Below are positions 19,296 to 62,682 of a stretch of DNA of 64,000 nucleotides, piece by piece. This DNA comes from Acidovorax sp. sif1233 (GTDB lineage Bacteria; Pseudomonadota; Gammaproteobacteria; Burkholderiales; Burkholderiaceae_C): assembly GCF_019218755.1 (NCBI RefSeq), contig NZ_JAHUWZ010000001.1, positions 1-64,000 on the forward strand, written 5' to 3'. Below the pieces are notes generated by a model. That model searched no databases and was not told where the DNA came from. It saw nothing but the letters and a program-made list of their open reading frames with translations. A program made the translations under genes and the position numbers. Positions within the stretch are counted from its first letter, which is position 1; each line of letters begins with the position of its first letter.

Positions 19296-19317
19296 CGGGG
19301 ATGAAATAGGCTTCTGG

Positions 19318-19357
19318 AGACCGGCCATCAAGCGCCGGTAGCTATTAAAAATAGAGC
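19318..19357 (-). repeat. Dispersed palindromic repeat, copy A (degenerate)
   Basis: It contains the core half CATCAAGCGC followed by GGTAGCTATTAAAAATAG, equivalent to the right flank of the other copies. ACCGGC (19320-19325) pairs with GCCGGT (19334-19339). It lies between the htpG stop and the htpG terminator. Confidence 0.65.
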
Positions 19358-19750: not shown

Positions 19751-20059
19751 GGCCGGGGCAACTCGCTGGGGATCTGGGATGGCGCAGCATAGCCCAGTGC
19801 CGTGGAACCGGTCCACTGTCCGGGGGCGCCTGCGCGCCACGGCCGGCGTGGTGGAAACAATACGCAATACGGTTCACGAACGTTAACGATTGTTTCTGCG
19901 CGGATTACGCCTGCCGCGCTCGATAAATTCAGGCCCTGCCTTTGCCCATGGCGGCCCAGGCGCGTTCACGCACTCCCTCGCATTTTTTGCCAGCCCTGAG
20001 GGGCCTGGTGAGGTCGCGGCGTGGCCGGAAGTTCGAGCCATCCACTTCAGGAGAATTCA
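19751..20059. other. 309-base region before the DUF11 gene
   Basis: No gene is supported. It is more AT-rich around 19855-19935, with the palindrome CGTTAACG at about 19880-19887, which could be part of a regulatory site. AGGAGAA at about 20049-20055 is the ribosome binding site of the next gene. No clear -35/-10 pair is visible. Confidence 0.5.
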
Positions 20060-23000
20060 ATGCCCTATCGATTGACGCGACTATGGACGAGCGGCCGCGC
20101 TCCCTGGCGCGCGCAGACATCCAGCGGGTCCATGCAGCCTGCCAGCGATGCCACCGCGCAGGCACGCGAGGTTCCTGCGGCTGCGCCCGCGCAGCGCGCC
20201 GTGCGCCGCTTCCGCTGGCTCTTGCTGGCCAGCGGGTTGTTTGCCGGGGCCGCCCTGGCGCAGTCCGCCGACCTGGTGGTGAACCATGCGGATTCCCCGG
20301 ACCCGGGGCCCGCCGGAGGCATCTTCACGTACACGCTGCGCATCGACAACAACGGCCCGAACGGCGCCACCGGCGTCACGCTGGTGGACACCCTTCCCGC
20401 GGGCTCCACGTTCATCGACGTGAACACCACGGCGGGCTCGTGCAGCGAGGCTGGCGGCACCGTCAACTGCGCCGTGGGCAACATCGCGTTCAACACCAAC
20501 CAGACCGTGACGATCCGCGTGCGGCTGCCTTCCGCGGGCGTGTGGACCAACACCGCCACGGCCTCCAGCGCCACGTCCGATCCCAACACCAGCAACAATG
20601 TCAACAGCGTGCAGGACACCACCGCCACGCAGGCGGCCGACCTGGCGCTCGTGGCCACGCCTTCCACGGCCAACGTGGTGGCCGGGCAGGCCTACAGCTA
20701 TGCGCTGCAGGCTGCGAACAACGGCCCGAATGCGGCCGATGGGAGCCAGCGCATCACCTTCACCGTGCCGGCCGGCGCCTCCATCACGTCGACGCCCACG
20801 GGCACGGGCTGGTCGTGCACGGCCTCGGGCGGTTACCCGCTGAACAGCGGCACGGTGACCTGCACCCGCGCGGGCACGCTCGCCAATGGAGCGTCCGCCG
20901 CCGTGCTGACGGTCCCCGCCGTGTCCAACGTCAACGGCACGGTGACCGCCGCATTCGCCATCGACGGCCTCAAGCCCGACAACTCGGCCATGCCGGACGG
21001 CAACACCTCCAACAACACCACCTCCGCCGACGTGACTTCCGCCTCCGGTGCCGATGTGGCCATCACCAAGAGCGCCGCCAGCTCCAATGTGGCCCAGGGC
21101 ACCAACGTGGTGTACACGCTCACGCCGCGCCTCAATGGCGGGGAGTCGCTGGTGGGCCGGCCCGTCACGGTGACCGATACGCTGGGCGCGGGGCTCACCT
21201 TCGTGTCCGCCGTGGGCACGGGCTGGACCTGTGACGCCACGATCACCTGCACGCGCACGGAGTACACCGGTGCCAACTTCACCAACATGCCCGTCATCAC
21301 CGTGACCGCCACGGCCAACAGCGCGGGCACGCTGGGCAACACGGCCGCCGTCAACACGCCGCTGGCCGACCCGGTGCCCGCGAACAACTCGGACTCGGTC
21401 AACGTGACGGCCAGCAACGATGCGGACATGCAGCTGACCAAGACGGCCAGCATCAACCCGGTAGTGCCGGGCCAGGCGTTCAACTACACGCTGACGGCGC
21501 GCAACACCGGCCCCTTGGCGGTACCCAACGGCCAGGCGATCACCATCTCCGACGTGGTGCCTGCCGGTGTGACGCTCAACAGCCTTGTCAGCGCCACGGG
21601 CTGGACCTGCGATGCACTGCCCTTTGTCGGCAACGGCGTGGCAGCCTGGAACTGCACCCGCTCCACGGGCCTGAACGCGAACTCCAATGCGCCTGCCGTC
21701 ACGGTGTCCGGCGTGCTGGCCAGCGCGGGTACCGTCACCAACAATGCCTGCGTGGCGCTGGGGGGAGGTGCGCGAGTGGACAGCAACGGGACGAACAACT
21801 GCGTGGGCGTGGGCGTCACCGCCACCGCCACCCAGGCCGACCTGCGCGTCGTGTCCAAGACCGCAGCGCCGGACCCCGTGGTCGCGGGCCAGAACCTGAC
21901 CTACGTCATCACGGTCGACAACGTCGGCCCGGCGGCCGCCAGCAATGTCATCGTGTCGGACACGCTGGCCAGCCTGGTGACCACCGGCGGCTTCCAGTCC
22001 GCTGTGGCCTCGCAGGGCAGCTGCACGCCCAACGGCGTCACCAACGGCACCTCGCAGAACCTGAGCTGCAACCTGGGCACGCTGAACTCCGGCGCGCAGG
22101 CCACGGTGACCGTGGTGGTGCGCCCCAGCATCGCCGCCACCGGCCCGCGCACCAACATCGCCACCGTGCGTTCCGCCGACGTGGGCGACCCCAACCAGGC
22201 CAACAACAGCGGCAGCGTGACCAGCCAGGTCACGGCCATCGTGGACGTGACCGCCGCCAAGACGGCCACGCCCTCCACGGTCGCGGCCGGTGCGCCCATC
22301 ACCTTCGTGGCGACCATCGGCAACACGGGGCCTTCCACGGCACAGACCGTGCAGATGGTGGACACCCTGCCGTCCAATGCCGCCTTTATCGACGTGGTGA
22401 GCGTGAGCGGGGGCGGCAGCTGCGTCCCCATCGCGGCAGGCACGGTGGGCGGAACGCTCACCTGCAACTGGGCCAGCATCAATGCCGGCGTGCAGCAGAC
22501 GGTGAACTACCGCATGCGTCCCCTGGGCAACGCGGCAGGCAGCAGCGTGGTCAACAGCGTCGCTGCGACCACGGCCACCACCGAGTCGAGCCTGGCCAAC
22601 AACAGCGCCACCACCACGACGCCCGTCACGGCGCCGCAGCTGGACATCCTGGTGAACAAGGTGGACAGCTCCGACCCGGTGGACCTGGGGCAGTCGACGA
22701 CGTACACGATCACGGTGAACAACAGCGGCCCGTCCTTCGGCACCAACGTGGTGATGACCGACGTGTTCCCCGCGCCGGGCTCCTCGCCGACGGCCACCTT
22801 CAGCTACCGGGGCTCGCTCACGGTGAATGCGGGCGGCTCCTGCACCGAGCCCGCGGTGGGTGCGACCAGCGGCACGCTGATCTGCTCCTTCCCAGGGCTC
22901 AGCAGCGGCCAGAGCGCCACCATCACCTACGTGATGCGCGCTGAAACCCTCACCGTCGCGGGGGCCACGAGCGGCACCGCGTTCAACCAGGCGAGCGTGG

Positions 23001-23542
23001 TGGTGGAGGAAACCGAGACCACGCTGGCCAACAACGTGGTGACGCATGACACGACCGCGCGCCGCTTCACCGTGGCCACGGACCTGGCCCTGACCAAGAC
23101 GGCGCCCGCAGGCCCGATCGCACCGGGCGCGGCGCTGGACTACACGCTGGTGGTGACCAACAACGGCCCGCTGGCCAGCGATGGCGCGCAGGTGGTGGAT
23201 GTGCTGCCGGCGGGTGTCAACTTCGTCTCCGCTGCCGGGTGCGTCAATGCCTCGGGCACCGTGCGCTGTGCGGTCGGCCCACTGGCGGTAGGGGCTTCGC
23301 GCACCTTCACGATCAGCACCATGCTGTCGTCCCCCTACAGCGGCGCACGTCCGCTGGTGAACTCCGCCACCGTGGATGCGCCGGGCGATACCAACCCGCC
23401 CAACAACACGGCCAGCGCCACGACCACGGTGTCCAACACCACCAGCAGCATCCCCACGCTGTCCGAGTGGGGCCTGATCCTGCTGGCGGTCCTGCTGGGG
23501 CTGATGGCCTGGCAGCACCCTGCCGTGGGTCGCCGCCGGTAG
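20060..23542 (+). CDS. Large DUF11-repeat surface protein with IPTL-CTERM sorting signal
   Basis: The protein has 1160 residues. The ATG follows AGGAGAA. A long basic N-terminus leads into a hydrophobic signal (WLLLASGLFAGAALA, about 54-68). Eight DUF11-type beta-sandwich repeats follow, each about 120-150 residues, with repeated NNGP, VDTLPAG and NTA patterns and Thr/Asn/Ser-rich linkers. The C-terminus is IPTLSEWGLILLAVLLG followed by a basic tail, the IPTL-CTERM form of the exosortase sorting signal. The protein should be processed at the inner membrane and displayed or released outside. No exosortase gene is visible here. A strong terminator follows. Confidence 0.9.
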   Translation: MPYRLTRLWTSGRAPWRAQTSSGSMQPASDATAQAREVPAAAPAQRAVRRFRWLLLASGLFAGAALAQSADLVVNHADSPDPGPAGGIFTYTLRIDNNGPNGATGVTLVDTLPAGSTFIDVNTTAGSCSEAGGTVNCAVGNIAFNTNQTVTIRVRLPSAGVWTNTATASSATSDPNTSNNVNSVQDTTATQAADLALVATPSTANVVAGQAYSYALQAANNGPNAADGSQRITFTVPAGASITSTPTGTGWSCTASGGYPLNSGTVTCTRAGTLANGASAAVLTVPAVSNVNGTVTAAFAIDGLKPDNSAMPDGNTSNNTTSADVTSASGADVAITKSAASSNVAQGTNVVYTLTPRLNGGESLVGRPVTVTDTLGAGLTFVSAVGTGWTCDATITCTRTEYTGANFTNMPVITVTATANSAGTLGNTAAVNTPLADPVPANNSDSVNVTASNDADMQLTKTASINPVVPGQAFNYTLTARNTGPLAVPNGQAITISDVVPAGVTLNSLVSATGWTCDALPFVGNGVAAWNCTRSTGLNANSNAPAVTVSGVLASAGTVTNNACVALGGGARVDSNGTNNCVGVGVTATATQADLRVVSKTAAPDPVVAGQNLTYVITVDNVGPAAASNVIVSDTLASLVTTGGFQSAVASQGSCTPNGVTNGTSQNLSCNLGTLNSGAQATVTVVVRPSIAATGPRTNIATVRSADVGDPNQANNSGSVTSQVTAIVDVTAAKTATPSTVAAGAPITFVATIGNTGPSTAQTVQMVDTLPSNAAFIDVVSVSGGGSCVPIAAGTVGGTLTCNWASINAGVQQTVNYRMRPLGNAAGSSVVNSVAATTATTESSLANNSATTTTPVTAPQLDILVNKVDSSDPVDLGQSTTYTITVNNSGPSFGTNVVMTDVFPAPGSSPTATFSYRGSLTVNAGGSCTEPAVGATSGTLICSFPGLSSGQSATITYVMRAETLTVAGATSGTAFNQASVVVEETETTLANNVVTHDTTARRFTVATDLALTKTAPAGPIAPGAALDYTLVVTNNGPLASDGAQVVDVLPAGVNFVSAAGCVNASGTVRCAVGPLAVGASRTFTISTMLSSPYSGARPLVNSATVDAPGDTNPPNNTASATTTVSNTTSSIPTLSEWGLILLAVLLGLMAWQHPAVGRRR

Positions 23543-24445: not shown

Positions 24446-24644
24446 GGTGGTGTGAGTCTTCGGGCCTGGAGGCCCTTCGCAAGTCAGAAAAATGCCCTTC
24501 TTGAAGGTCGTTTTTCTGATGGTGCGCGACATCGCACCCGCGTGCACACGGGTTGACAATCGTTTGCAATGAAGAGGCGCCAAGGGCATCGCCGGCACCC
24601 GCGGCGTGAACCCCGTGGCGCGGCACGCAGGCCGCGGGGCTGCC

Positions 24645-25709
24645 TCAGGCGGACAGGGGCTCTTCCTGCATGGCCTCGATCTGCTCGATCAGCATGTCCA
24701 CCTGCCCGCGCCAGTAGTCGCTGGTGCCGAACCACGGGAAGTTGACCGGGAAGATCGGGTCCTGCCAGCGGCGCGCGAGCCAGGCGCTGTAGTGGATCAG
24801 GCGCAGCGTGCGCAGCGGCTCGATGAGCGCCAGCTCGCGGCGGTCGAAGCCGCGGAACTGCTCGTAGCCGTCGATCAGGGCGCCGAGCTGGTGGGTGCGC
24901 TGGCGCCGGTCGCCCGACAGCAGCATCCACAGATCCTGCACGGCCGGGCCCATGCGGGCGTCGTCCAGGTCCACGAAGTGCGGGCCGCCCCGGCCCCATT
25001 CGTCCAGCGGCGTCCAGAGGATGTTGCCGGGGTGGCAGTCGCCGTGCAGGCGGATGGGGGTGGCATCTTTCAAGCTAAATGGGGCTCCAGCGCTTGATGG
25101 ATAAGCGCTGGCAGCTATCAATTCAAGAGCTTTTTCGCACTGGGCCTTCCACTGGGCCTGCATGTCGAGCGGGATGATTTCCCGGGCAAGCAGCCAGTCG
25201 TACGACGCCGTGCCAAAGGTCTGCACGTCCAGCAGCGGGCGGTGCACAAACGGCCGGGCCGCGCCCACGGTATGGATGCGGGCGAGAAAGCGGCCGATCC
25301 ATTCGAGCACCTCGAAGTCATCCAGCTCGGGCTGGCGGCCGCCGCGCCAGGGGCTGACCGAAAACGCAAACCCGTCGTGCTGGTGCAAGGTGCTGCCGTT
25401 CAGCACCAGGGGCCCCACGGCGGGCACCTCGGCGGCCATCAGCTCGGCGGCAAAGGCGTGCTCTTCCAGGATCTGCGCCTCGCTCCAGCGGCCCGGGCGG
25501 TAGAACTTGGCCACCACGCGCTCGCCGTCTTCCAGCGTGACTTGGTACACCCGGTTTTCGTACGACGACAGGGCCATGAGGCGCCCGTCGCCATACAGGC
25601 CCACGCCGGCCAGCGCGTCCAGCACCTGGTCGGGAGTGAGGCGGGCGTAGGGGTGCTGGTCGGCGGGGGGGCGAGTGTCGGGCGCGGTGTCGGGAGGCAA
25701 TGGGGTCAT
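24645..25709 (-). CDS. srkA: SrkA/YihE-like stress-response kinase with an in-frame repeat insertion
   Basis: The protein has 354 residues. It belongs to the APH/choline-kinase-like fold: SYENRVYQV loop, VVAKFYRPGRW with the ATP-binding Lys, catalytic loop LHGDCHPGNILW (Asp224, Asn229) and DLDDA (about 247-251). E. coli SrkA is a cytosolic Ser/Thr kinase that protects cells from envelope and MazEF-linked stress. Residues about 194-214, just before the catalytic loop, are encoded by one copy of the dispersed palindromic repeat found elsewhere in this window. The reading frame stays open through it, so the protein carries about 20 extra residues in a loop region. It is probably still functional, since all catalytic residues remain. 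Confidence 0.88.
   Translation of the reverse strand: MTPLPPDTAPDTRPPADQHPYARLTPDQVLDALAGVGLYGDGRLMALSSYENRVYQVTLEDGERVVAKFYRPGRWSEAQILEEHAFAAELMAAEVPAVGPLVLNGSTLHQHDGFAFSVSPWRGGRQPELDDFEVLEWIGRFLARIHTVGAARPFVHRPLLDVQTFGTASYDWLLAREIIPLDMQAQWKAQCEKALELIAASAYPSSAGAPFSLKDATPIRLHGDCHPGNILWTPLDEWGRGGPHFVDLDDARMGPAVQDLWMLLSGDRRQRTHQLGALIDGYEQFRGFDRRELALIEPLRTLRLIHYSAWLARRWQDPIFPVNFPWFGTSDYWRGQVDMLIEQIEAMQEEPLSA
25068..25130 (+). repeat. Dispersed palindromic repeat, copy B (inside srkA)
   Basis: The core GCGCTTGATGGATAAGCGC is at 25090-25108. The full stem CCAGCGCTT (25087-25095) / AAGCGCTGG (25103-25111) is perfect with a 7-base loop, and AGCTATCAATTC follows as in other copies. It is visibly richer in AT than the surrounding coding sequence. 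Confidence 0.85.
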
Positions 25710-25754
25710 GCCCCATTGTCGCCGCCCGCCCCGGCATGTCCCGCGCGTTGCGTG

Positions 25755-26855
25755 TCAGCGGGGCAGCATGGTGGCGATGTGCCCGGCGCGCGGGTCGCCG
25801 CTGCCGGCCAGCACGGCGGCAAACAGCGCCTGCGTGGCCTCGGGCCCCTCATGGTTGTGCACCACCAGCCAGGGGTTGGAGGCGGTCTGTACGGCGGCGC
25901 TGAACTGGTTCCAGGCCGCCACCAGGCGGTCGTTGAGGCCCTGCGCACCCCAGTCGGTGTGGCGCTTCTTGACCTGGGCGGGCGCGAAGAACATCACCGG
26001 GCGCGGGCCGGGCAGTTGGCCGGCGCCGCCCAGATCGCCCACATGACTTGCACCCACCGAGCAGCTGTAGGCCAGGCCCGTGAAGTGGGCGTGGATGCGC
26101 TGGCGCAGGCCCACGCTGCCCGCGAAGTCGATGTACACGCTGGGCGTGGCGCCGTCGAGCTGCGATTCCAGCGCGTCGTAGGTGACCACGCGGTCGTAGC
26201 AGCCCAGGCTTTCGCAGAAGGCCACATTGCCCGGCGACGTCAGCCCCACGACCTCGATGCCGCCCCGTTGCGCCAGCTGGAACGCGGTGCCGTAGGCCGT
26301 CTTGCTCGACGCGCTGGACAGCAGCATGCGCCTGGCGCCGAAGAACTGCTGGTCTGCCAGAAAGTCGTCGATGAGCCACGAGGTGATGAACAGCGGCCGC
26401 AGCAGCGCCTGCACGTCCTCGTTGTCGGCGCGGTACAGCGGGTCGGTGCGGGTGCGCAGGTAGTGGTTGTAGACGGCGTGCAGGCCCGCGCGGTGGGGGG
26501 CACCATCGCTGAAGCCGGCCGCGTTGGCGCGCTGGGGCGAGAGCACCGCCTGGGTGCCCATGGGCCAGTAGCCGTACAGCCGCTCGCCCACCGCCACGTC
26601 GGGGTGCGATGACTCGGTCACCGTGCCAAACCCCCACACGGGTACGATGCCCCAGCCGGGCTCGCTGGTGGGGAAGAACTGCCAGTAGTTGAGCATGTTC
26701 CCCAGCGCGGCGTAGGTGATGTTGTTGGACGTGAGGGCGAACTGTTCGACCCGCACGCGGACCTGGCCCCCGGCGAGTGCGGGTTCTTCGGCGGCCCACT
26801 GGCGGGTGGTGGCCAGCTGGTCCTGGCGCACGAGGAGGGTGGTGGTGGTGCTCAT
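25755..26855 (-). CDS. DUF2855 family protein, MDR-like
   Basis: The protein has 366 residues. The pattern is that of DUF2855: LTSNNITYAALGNML near residue 40, VPVWGFGTVTES, GERLYGYWPMG and a C-terminal LVVHNHEGPEATQALF. The architecture recalls zinc-free medium-chain dehydrogenase/quinone reductases, with a possible dinucleotide region around SSASSKTAYGTA, but no catalytic activity is established for this family. There is no signal peptide. The gene lies 45 bases upstream of srkA on the same strand, so the two may be cotranscribed. Confidence 0.85.
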   Translation of the reverse strand: MSTTTTLLVRQDQLATTRQWAAEEPALAGGQVRVRVEQFALTSNNITYAALGNMLNYWQFFPTSEPGWGIVPVWGFGTVTESSHPDVAVGERLYGYWPMGTQAVLSPQRANAAGFSDGAPHRAGLHAVYNHYLRTRTDPLYRADNEDVQALLRPLFITSWLIDDFLADQQFFGARRMLLSSASSKTAYGTAFQLAQRGGIEVVGLTSPGNVAFCESLGCYDRVVTYDALESQLDGATPSVYIDFAGSVGLRQRIHAHFTGLAYSCSVGASHVGDLGGAGQLPGPRPVMFFAPAQVKKRHTDWGAQGLNDRLVAAWNQFSAAVQTASNPWLVVHNHEGPEATQALFAAVLAGSGDPRAGHIATMLPR

Positions 26856-29251: not shown

Positions 29252-29342
29252 GGCGCGAGTATTGGGCACCATCATCGCGCGCGTGGCTGAATGCCAGCTT
29301 GCAGCGCGCGGGCCGGGCGCCGGGGAGCGCCATGCCGCACGT

Positions 29343-29401
29343 AAAAATAGCTTCCAACGCTTGGCTGGCAAGCGCTGGAAGCTATGATTTTTGTAGCTAT
29401 T
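29343..29401. repeat. Dispersed palindromic repeat, copy C
   Basis: The arms ATAGCTTCCAACGCTT (29347-29362) and AAGCGCTGGAAGCTAT (29370-29385) pair at 15 of 16 positions around GGCTGGC. The right flank TGTAGCTA includes the stop codon of the DUF1304 gene on the minus strand. Confidence 0.85.
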
Positions 29402-57959: not shown

Positions 57960-58005
57960 TAGTCAAAAAAGATAGCATTCAGCGCTTGATGGATAAGCGC
58001 TATGA
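57958..58005 (+). repeat. Dispersed palindromic repeat, copy D
   Basis: AGCGCTT (57981-57987) / AAGCGCT (57995-58001) form a perfect stem with the GATGGAT loop, an exact match to the core of copy B. ATAGCATTC precedes it. The TAG stop of the convergent MFS gene (58000-58002, minus strand) lies within it. Confidence 0.85.
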
Positions 58006-59304
58006 CCCTGTTTTCTTCTTGTTTTCGAGGGAGACCAAGGGCGACACCGGCAGCACCCGGAACCCTGCCGACGCCAGCGCCAGCCAAGTGGCAATGGCCA
58101 GCATGACGGCCGTGTAGGCATCCCATCCCTGGCGCTGCGCCCAGGTGGCGACGATGCCAGTGAACCACTGCATCAGCGCTACCCCCAGGAACATCGCCAT
58201 GGTGTAGGCCGACAGTGCCCGGCCTGTGAGCGTGGGCGGATAGGAGGCCCGCACATCGGCGTACTGCAGCACGCCGTAGCCCGACAGCAGGCCCATCAGC
58301 AAAATCAGCACCACGCTGGCCCAAGCGTTCCCGTGCAGGAACGCCAGCACGATGAACAGGCTCGCCATGAGCAGCGAGGCATTGCCGATCCAGCGTCTGC
58401 GGCGGGCGATGCCCGGGTCCAGCCGACCGCCCAGACCCGGCGCGAAGAGGGCAATCAGCGAGAGACCCAGCGCAACGTTGCCACTGTCTACCAGCGAGAG
58501 GTGGTAGCGGTCCATCAGCAGCGGTGCCAGCCACAGGCCGCGCAATGACAGAAACGCGGCGTAGCCCGACATGCCCAGCAGCAGGATGCCCCAGGTGTGC
58601 GGCACCGTGAGCAATTGGCCAAAGCCCAGCAGCGCCTGGCCCCAGGTTTCGCGCTGCGCCGGGGGCGGCACCAGCGGGGTGGGCTCGTGCACGCGCAGCC
58701 AGATCAGCAGCCACGACAGCGCGCTGAGCACCGCCAACACGGCATAACCCGTGCGCCAGCCGCCGCCGTGTTGCACCAGCCAGGCCAGCGGCGTGCCGGT
58801 GAACAGCAGGCCCAGGCCACCCACACCCATCGCCACGCCCGACAGGTAGGCAAACCGCTCTGCCGGAAAATGCCGCGCAATGAACAGCGTGCAGGCCAGA
58901 AACGCGGGCGAGCAGCCCACGCCGATCAGCAATTGCCCTGCCATCAGCCAGGGGTAGGCCGGCGCGGTGGCCGAGAGCGCCGACCCTGCAACCGCCAGCG
59001 GAAACGCCGTGAGTACCGTGCGCCGCAGGCCGTACAGGTCCAGCCCCACGCCCATCAGCAACTGGGCCACGCCGAAGGAAAGGCCAAACAGCCCCGCAAA
59101 CGCGCCCAGCGACCCTGGCGAGAGCCCGAAGTCCGCCGTCAGTCCCTGGGCCACCATGGCCGTGGTGGTGCGAAAGGCCTGGCTCAGTGCAAACCCGCTG
59201 AGCAGCGCAAGCAGCATGGCCCACAGCGCACGCGGTAATGGCCGGCCGCTGCCCGCGGGCAAGGATGGAGGCGCCGACGAGGACGGCAGGGGATTGCCGC
59301 TCAC
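58000..59304 (-). CDS. Major facilitator superfamily transporter
   Basis: The protein has 434 residues with twelve hydrophobic segments. Signatures include GLDLYGLRRTVLTAFPLAV after helix II and the LYGxxR-type loop. A GTG at 59304 overlaps the stop of the TSUP gene (GTGA), so translation looks coupled; an upstream ATG would overlap the TSUP gene more heavily. The stop codon lies in the repeat copy D element. The substrate is unknown (a solute exporter or carboxylate/sugar importer). Confidence 0.9.
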   Translation of the reverse strand: MSGNPLPSSSAPPSLPAGSGRPLPRALWAMLLALLSGFALSQAFRTTTAMVAQGLTADFGLSPGSLGAFAGLFGLSFGVAQLLMGVGLDLYGLRRTVLTAFPLAVAGSALSATAPAYPWLMAGQLLIGVGCSPAFLACTLFIARHFPAERFAYLSGVAMGVGGLGLLFTGTPLAWLVQHGGGWRTGYAVLAVLSALSWLLIWLRVHEPTPLVPPPAQRETWGQALLGFGQLLTVPHTWGILLLGMSGYAAFLSLRGLWLAPLLMDRYHLSLVDSGNVALGLSLIALFAPGLGGRLDPGIARRRRWIGNASLLMASLFIVLAFLHGNAWASVVLILLMGLLSGYGVLQYADVRASYPPTLTGRALSAYTMAMFLGVALMQWFTGIVATWAQRQGWDAYTAVMLAIATWLALASAGFRVLPVSPLVSLENKKKTGS

Positions 59305-62168: not shown

Positions 62169-62630
62169 TCAGGAGGTCGCGTACGGATCGGCAAATCCCA
62201 GCTCCCGCAGGATGTCGGTTTCGTACGACTCCATCTCCAGGGCATCCGCCTCGCTCGTCTCGTGGTCCCAGCCCTGGGCATGCAGCGTGCCGTGCACCAG
62301 CATGTGGGCGTAGTGTTCTTCCAGGCTCTTGTTTTGCTCCTTCGCCTCGCGCTCGATCACGGGGGCGCACAGCACCAGGTCGGCGGTCACCACGGGCTCC
62401 TGCGTGTAGTCGAAGGTGAGCACGTTGGTGGCGTAGTCCTTCTTGCGGTACGCGTGGTTGAGCTGGCGGCCCTCGTCCTCACCCACGATGCGCACGGTGA
62501 TCTCGGCGTCGGTGGCCAGGGCGTGGCGAATCCAGCGCGTGACCTTGTGGCGCGGCAGCACGGCGCGGTGTGCCGCCGCGCCGTCAAATGCACCGAATTG
62601 CAGCGACAGGGAGAGGTGGTTCAAGGGCAT
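62169..62630 (-). CDS. ybeY: Endoribonuclease YbeY
   Basis: The protein has 153 residues. The zinc site HGTLHAQGWDH (His113, His117, His123) and RxLN-type RQLNHAYRKKDYATNVLTFDY are present. It is needed for 16S rRNA 3'-end maturation and ribosome quality control. It follows phoH on the same strand; copy E of the repeat sits in the gap. Confidence 0.96.
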   Translation of the reverse strand: MPLNHLSLSLQFGAFDGAAAHRAVLPRHKVTRWIRHALATDAEITVRIVGEDEGRQLNHAYRKKDYATNVLTFDYTQEPVVTADLVLCAPVIEREAKEQNKSLEEHYAHMLVHGTLHAQGWDHETSEADALEMESYETDILRELGFADPYATS

Positions 62631-62637
62631 TGGGGCC

Positions 62638-62682
62638 TCAGGCGCTTGATTGGAAAGCGCGGATAGCTATAGAAACAGGAGC
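62638..62682 (+). repeat. Dispersed palindromic repeat, copy E
   Basis: GCGCTT (62642-62647) / AAGCGC (62655-62660) pair around GATTGGA. GGATAGCTATAGAAACAGGAGC follows in the manner of copies A and B. It lies between ybeY and phoH in the operon. Confidence 0.75.

Follow-up and report, generated by a model that had tools for sequence, protein, structure and literature searches.

The srkA gene of Acidovorax sp. sif1233 was found to contain, at positions 25068-25130 (minus strand), a full-length copy of a dispersed repeat of about 63 nt that is rich in AT and forms an imperfect palindrome. The copy encodes exactly residues 194 to 214 of SrkA, ALELIAASAYPSSAGAPFSLK, and the catalytic loop follows soon after. 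Judging from the open frame and its conservation, this repeat-derived peptide is presumably translated in frame as part of SrkA. It is very probable that the segment as a whole represents a translated dispersed repeat that was acquired ancestrally in srkA, tolerated, inherited and eroded, and that at least six other proteins have had the same history. Positions refer to the window, the whole 64,000-nucleotide stretch that was analyzed. The features of the srkA locus are as follows.

24645-25709, minus strand: coding sequence of the SrkA-like kinase, 354 aa
25023-25046, minus strand: catalytic loop HGDCHPGN, residues 222 to 229 (H222, G223, D224, H226, and N229 invariant in 28 sequences)
25087-25095: left palindrome arm of the srkA copy, CCAGCGCTT
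25103-25111: right palindrome arm of the srkA copy, AAGCGCTGG

The 354-aa open reading frame (ORF) was identified as SrkA by the NCBIfam equivalog model (498 bits; cut-off, 194), and the protein has the APH fold and HGDxHxxN, which we take to be the catalytic motif of SrkA kinases. The two palindrome arms are perfect over 9 bp and enclose a loop of 7 nt (25096-25102). A nucleotide profile built from 95 other repeat copies, with the srkA copy excluded, matched positions 25130-25068 of the minus strand with 57.6 bits (E = 3.9e-17; model positions 2 to 64 of 66). The first-pass annotation had placed a palindromic repeat in frame at about residues 194 to 214, before the catalytic loop, and its coordinates, frame, and residues proved exact. 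It had also proposed a peptide derived from a repeat, similar in idea to the Rickettsia palindromic elements (RPEs); the profile match, which corresponds to codons 194 to 214 of the open frame, agrees with this proposal.

Several controls addressed chance. Synonymous recoding of srkA (300 recodings) gave at most 12.9 bits, compared to the 57.6 bits observed. Across the 1.76 Mb of retrieved loci, no match above 6.9 bits was found in reversed DNA, compared to 281 matches of at least 30 bits in forward DNA. The two-arm palindrome pattern occurred once in the 64-kb window and in none of 100 shuffles. In the 64-kb window alone, the 15-nt core of the repeat at up to three mismatches was found 13 times with 7.35 expected, and 5 of 100 shuffles had as many, which is unremarkable. 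The folding energy of the srkA stretch, calculated for the plus strand and not the mRNA strand, was likewise unremarkable (z = -1.39; equaled or surpassed by 20 of 200 shuffles).

The repeat family was characterized in the 5.76-Mb genome of sif1233. The core 15-mer AGCGCTNGCAGCTAT was present at 207 sites with up to one mismatch, 84 of them exact, and the reversed pattern at none. In the genome sequence examined, 108 core sites with a palindrome partner were located at 96 distinct places. Alignment of these 96 copies defined a length of about 63 nt for the element; informative positions extend from about -38 to +27 relative to the core. The GC content is 46.3%, compared to 68.9% in the flanks. 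Among 60 genomes including that of sif1233, the exact core was present in 34 of 36 from the genus set and in none of the 24 that represent other families of the order; in a set of 60 genomes that sampled different genera of the family, again including sif1233, it was present in 13. The profile also matched the following positions in the window.

29340-29397, minus strand: second repeat copy, nearly symmetric, 46.1 bits, at the 5' end of a predicted ORF (29398-28493, minus strand)
57965-58016, plus strand: weaker repeat copy, 24.2 bits, crossed by a single long frame without coding composition
62628-62682, minus strand: weaker repeat copy, 20.7 bits, intergenic between two ORFs, with no frame above 80 aa across it
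19301-19357, minus strand: weaker repeat copy, 20.3 bits, between two ORFs

The copy at 29340-29397 has no supported coding frame across it. Nearly symmetric copies (this one and those at L019, L027, and L029) have AT-rich tails on both sides and resemble two-way terminators. No Rfam family matched window positions 24600-25800 at E ≤ 1.

The family was compared with known systems as these are described in the cited papers. Palindromes that code for protein are known chiefly from Rickettsia and Wolbachia (titles cited in PMC2229807). RPEs are Rickettsia-specific palindromic repeats of 105 to 146 bp (PMC2229807) that are translated in frame within conserved proteins (PMC2229807, PMC10969869). 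The Acidovorax repeat is also palindromic and lies in frame within conserved genes, where it is presumably translated, but it is about 63 nt long, belongs to Comamonadaceae, occupies an in-frame position within a gene at 6 of the 96 places studied, and adds less than its own span. ERIC sequences of enterobacteria (127 bp) belong to the small mobile repeats (ERIC/MITE) that are fused in frame to host ORFs (PMC2229807); the Acidovorax repeat is likewise fused in frame with host ORFs, with about 63 nt versus 127 bp. BREs are about 90 bp long, have a mean GC content of 69% in Bordetella, are sometimes arranged in tandem, and include some copies within coding sequences, with 1 and 4 copies in two listed Acidovorax genomes (PMC3110155). 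They share with the Acidovorax repeat their occurrence in betaproteobacteria, Comamonadaceae included, and some copies inside coding sequences. The length of about 63 nt, the GC content of 46%, the 84 exact cores, and the dispersed arrangement set the Acidovorax repeat apart from BREs by description.

Intragenic REPs are described in PMC3733652 as many-copy short palindromes with GTAG/CGTC, which are mostly intergenic and in some cases lie in ORFs and encode 20 to 30 residues; REPs within ORFs were reported there for Thauera. The Acidovorax repeat is similarly a short multicopy palindrome with some copies in ORFs, and its 207 near-matching and 84 exact cores correspond to the copy number of more than 100 per genome given for REP/RAYT systems (PMC2817692). 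However, inspection by eye revealed no GTAG/CGTC at either end of the 96-copy consensus. The RAYT gene is described as flanked by two inverted REPs (PMC2817692), whereas the genome search gave a single Y1_Tnp (RAYT-like) gene (L161, G000:C11:463445-463726), which has no flanking Acidovorax repeat and whose 3.3-kb locus does not contain the core at up to two mismatches. The missing flanking copies led to the rejection of a RAYT-driven REP. The words Acidovorax, Comamon-, Polaromonas, and Delftia are absent from the main text of PMC3733652, and in the open-access PMC literature searched, no description of the repeat was recognized by title or abstract start. On the features tested, the repeat appears to be a separate family outside the described REP/RAYT, RPE, and BRE systems. 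The earlier remark that such cases are rarely reported in betaproteobacteria needs softening in view of the intra-ORF REPs of Thauera (PMC3733652) and the BREs within coding sequences (PMC3110155).

The srkA copy was followed among relatives. In the Acidovorax-like genus set, a match at the same place was found at E < 1e-3 in 22 of 35 rows and was weak in 4, and all stages of decay were represented, which indicates an old feature. A strain-specific recent insertion was therefore rejected, since the genus set shares the site, and the view of the copy as a local event gave way to that of an old feature of this set. A profile search restricted to the coding strand in 130 SrkA genes (128 rows used; the duplicate L081 and the misaligned L157 were dropped) gave 30 matches at E < 1e-3, 9 at E < 1, and none in 89 rows, all matches being at the same place; outside the aligned segment, the profile matched only at E values of 0.0011 (L058) and 0.85 (L121). 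By sequence identity, the closest named SrkA loci are, among others, those of Acidovorax, Giesbergeria, Paracidovorax, Comamonas, and Rhodoferax. In a quick SrkA tree computed with the trait columns left out, 26 of the 30 positives fell within a single 40-row group of Acidovorax/Comamonas/Giesbergeria (support 81, open fork), and the other four were three Rhodoferax-like rows and L100. The tree requires at least nine changes over the 119 non-weak rows; many of its forks are weak, and it does not separate gain from loss. Genomes G004 and G031 fell in a five-member group that includes three positives (support 95), and their srkA segment has only 16 residues. This nested position among positives suggests that their repeat-free state is due to loss.

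G004 and G031 have one exact core each, and the repeat is missing from their srkA, HemD, YhhN, HI0933-like, and MATE genes; they form a natural repeat-poor lineage within a repeat-rich genus set. G030 (L065) is filed in the same genus and has no exact core. Its SrkA groups with Variovorax/Xenophilus-like rows, so that it is perhaps a misplaced genome.

The interval between A194 and R220 (A194 to I219) comprises 26 residues in sif1233 and in all 22 repeat-positive genus rows, compared to 18 residues in 14 of 15 order-level homologues and 24 in the remaining one. The 21 repeat codons thus correspond to a net gain of 8 residues, which indicates that the srkA copy is not a pure insertion. The comparison of homologues proposed by the first-pass annotation showed the segment to be absent where genomes lack the repeat, as in these order-level genomes. 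The outcome that the annotation had named as refuting, with homologues free of the repeat elsewhere all keeping the segment as conserved protein sequence, was not observed. The interval ranged from 15 to 59 residues in repeat-negative named rows, a few of which come from outside the family, and from 15 to 75 among named SrkA loci, mostly of the family. Of the 13 genus rows with a weak match or none, 10 retained the length of 26. G011, G027, and G032 (8, 40, and 75 exact cores) have no recognizable srkA repeat and still have 26 residues, and G001 has no core copy yet has 26 residues and a weak srkA match of 12.9 bits. These exceptions indicate that copy number does not predict in any simple way whether srkA has the repeat.

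Constraint on the segment was analyzed in 34 genus-set sequences. GC3 of the repeat window was 0.46, compared to 0.86 elsewhere (0 of 307 windows as low), and amino acid identity was 0.50 versus 0.86 (20 of 307 other windows as low). Synonymous conservation was not raised in the genus set: codon identity given the same residue was 0.66, compared to 0.70 in the rest of the gene. Higher synonymous conservation in the 12 best srkA copies is circular. An AF2 model (28 sequences; mean pLDDT, 84.8) predicted a helix at residues 181 to 200, followed by a linker up to the catalytic loop; residues 194 to 200 form the helix end, and residues 201 to 214 are mostly linker, with a pLDDT of about 70 at 201 to 210. 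In this model, the segment looks like a tolerated linker and not like a conserved functional peptide. The srkA arms had 99 broken pairs, compared to a mean of 117.7 for shuffled arms (0 of 500 as low, with relatedness not controlled), and all nine arm pairs were kept in only 6 of 32 distinct srkA sequences. The HI0933-like and NuoF-like copies showed no pairing excess, as 371 and 287 of 500 shuffles had as few broken pairs. Selection for a hairpin was rejected because of the missing excess in these two copies, the small share of fully paired srkA sequences, and the uncontrolled kinship in srkA.

The repeat was found in frame in at least six further proteins. Testing of 88 open frames at 108 sites left 10 frames at 8 sites that passed a two-sided coding-composition filter; six of these sites were kept, L167 and L216 were left out, and the antisense frame of L192 was rejected. 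The six kept sites lie in clear Pfam families, namely, SrkA, HemD, an HI0933-like flavoprotein, a NuoF-like protein, a MATE transporter, and an FA_hydroxylase-YhhN fusion. A further copy was found in the flanks, beside the NuoF-like gene, in a protein resembling formate dehydrogenase alpha (FdhA; L282:1080-1145), whose name rests on its sequence and this location and not on a family search. Among the best 30 loci per protein, same-place matches at E < 1e-3 were found in 25 for the HI0933-like protein, 23 for YhhN, 25 for the NuoF-like protein (tallied by hand), 23 for HemD, and 20 for MATE. These sets include the sif1233 genome and one of the same species, and one YhhN row and one MATE row were not alignable. 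The FdhA segment was present in 28 of 29 aligned rows and absent in L307. Three registers are used: xLIAxSAYPSSAxGxF in the three unrelated proteins SrkA, YhhN, and FdhA, SAPGADPSSAGSYQID in the HI0933-like protein, and a peptide like ALxxxxQALAAI in the NuoF-like protein, HemD, and MATE.

In all four genes tested (SrkA, YhhN, HI0933-like, and NuoF-like), the repeat window had the lowest GC3 of the gene. Recoding (300 per gene) never reached the observed scores, with 51.8 bits versus a maximum of 27.2 for the HI0933-like gene, 49.4 versus 21.4 for the NuoF-like gene, 44.2 versus 14.3 for YhhN, 31.8 versus 15.4 for MATE, and 55.3 versus 36.8 for HemD. One Comamonadaceae repeat is present in frame in at least seven proteins, and most of the genus set shares these sites. 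HemD, one of the seven, is a haem-synthesis enzyme. This recurrence suggests that such repeats can rewrite proteins in free-living bacteria, as in Rickettsia. Every stage was seen, from near-consensus copies to erosion beyond recognition, so that the birth and fading of repeat-derived peptides become measurable.

Length comparison across the seven proteins revealed net gains of 0 to 16 residues, less than the repeat length of about 19 to 21 codons. FdhA gained 16 residues relative to the repeat-free L307, and HemD (loci L341-L370, L456, and L457) gained 8 relative to the repeat-free G004 and G031. The HI0933-like protein gained 8 residues relative to 14 of 27 order-level rows (5 to 9 relative to 25, 1 relative to one, and one not alignable), 7 relative to L313, and 3 relative to G031 and G004. 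No length change was found for YhhN relative to G031 and G004, for the NuoF-like protein relative to L307, or for MATE. The MATE repeat (L371, G000:C1:64849-66213; also L402 and L403) covers a segment that sequence and family predict to be a transmembrane helix. All 34 rows, with identities as low as about 39%, aligned here without a gap, and 28 of them had no match at E < 1e-3. L410, which has no MATE repeat match at all, has nearly the same residues (GFRLSALMALAFAALLFIAR) as L373 (GFRLSALIGIALAAILLIAK). Coverage of a helix at unchanged length suggests that some copies replaced host codons, and this gapless copy calls into question the usual assumption that such repeats arrive by insertion. 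Pure insertion would not easily fit the MATE site, whereas replacement by annealing or conversion, or a selected DNA motif, could. The repeat ends in SrkA (ALxLI) and in the HI0933-like protein (xYxIDT) encode residues present in several repeat-free homologues, which would fit a replacement of similar host codons by the ends. Joined-flank probes detected no exact empty site (0 of 204), the comparison of separate flanks gave length differences only, and no close empty/filled pair with exact junctions or target duplication was found.

In the preferred reading, the srkA segment would be translated from one copy of a REP-like palindromic repeat that is dispersed in Comamonadaceae and non-autonomous. 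An ancestor of the Acidovorax-like clade would have gained it in a stop-free, in-frame register, with about 13 host codons lost or overwritten and the ends probably replacing host sequence. The copy would have been tolerated because it forms a helix end and a surface linker ahead of the catalytic loop, and would since have been passed on to descendants while its codons eroded one at a time. In-frame copies in at least six other proteins would have arisen by the same process, with tolerance acting as the filter; the direction of change is one that we infer. Counting against this reading are the net gain of 8 residues in place of 21, the failure to find a close empty/filled pair, the Y1 transposase gene without flanking repeats, and the genomes in which copy number and the state of srkA disagree. 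As for the manner of arrival, a repeat copy, perhaps single stranded, may anneal to partly similar host DNA, replace codons by ectopic conversion or template switching, and refresh old copies. We regard such overwriting as a real possibility with less than even chances. The MATE copy, which none of 300 recodings matched in score, is the strongest hint of it, and the unchanged lengths of YhhN and the NuoF-like protein and the small gains of the HI0933-like protein, HemD, and FdhA point the same way. However, the repeat-free state of G004 and G031 may be secondary, that of L307 may be original or secondary, and no donor/acceptor pair was identified. The number of exact cores also correlated with the genic repeat score (Spearman 0.63 for SrkA [n = 34], 0.80 for YhhN [n = 25], 0.75 for HI0933 [n = 27], and 0.53 for NuoF [n = 26]), but relatedness confounds this and the profile comes from one genome; a relatedness check left only 4 independent pairs on starred branches (2.9 in the same direction, 0 opposite; median p, 0.25), and G032, G027, and G011 are counterexamples for srkA. 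That more core copies go with better-preserved genic copies is thus suggestive only. An extended version of overwriting, in which the family spreads by landing where its own translation resembles native residues (even in a transmembrane helix without length change), old copies are renewed from the pool of the genome, and they fade once the pool is lost, is speculative and in our judgment rather unlikely.

Alternatively, a selected DNA motif, protein binding or similar to an uptake sequence, might have formed in place within and between genes through point mutation or biased uptake. Such a motif would explain the zero-length MATE site and the sites kept across species with GC-poor codons, and would agree with the excess pairing of the srkA arms, for which relatedness was not controlled. 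It is nevertheless quite improbable, as 63 nt in defined order is long for an in situ origin, SrkA, HI0933, and FdhA became longer, decay has affected many of the orthologous copies, and the HI0933 and NuoF copies lack the pairing excess. The first-pass annotation spoke of domestication, and the peptide might now serve SrkA through linker length, regulation, or partner binding. The 26-residue length kept despite erosion favors this, but the segment is weakly conserved in amino acid identity and decayed in many relatives, lengths at named loci vary widely, and G004 and G031, nested in the clade, have 16 residues; a selected function is therefore very unlikely. A native protein that resembles the repeat by chance could be suspected from E. 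coli SrkA, which has ELIAA at about the same place, and from the likeness of the helix end to the first codons of the repeat. The full-length 57.6-bit match and the recoding control rule out such an origin, and with the difference in segment length from order-level homologues, its probability is close to nil.

Elsewhere in the window, positions 20021-23542 contain a long ORF with repeated domains. Its end, SIPTLSEWGLILLAVLLGLMAWQ, resembles what we take to be an IPTL-type C-terminal sorting signal.
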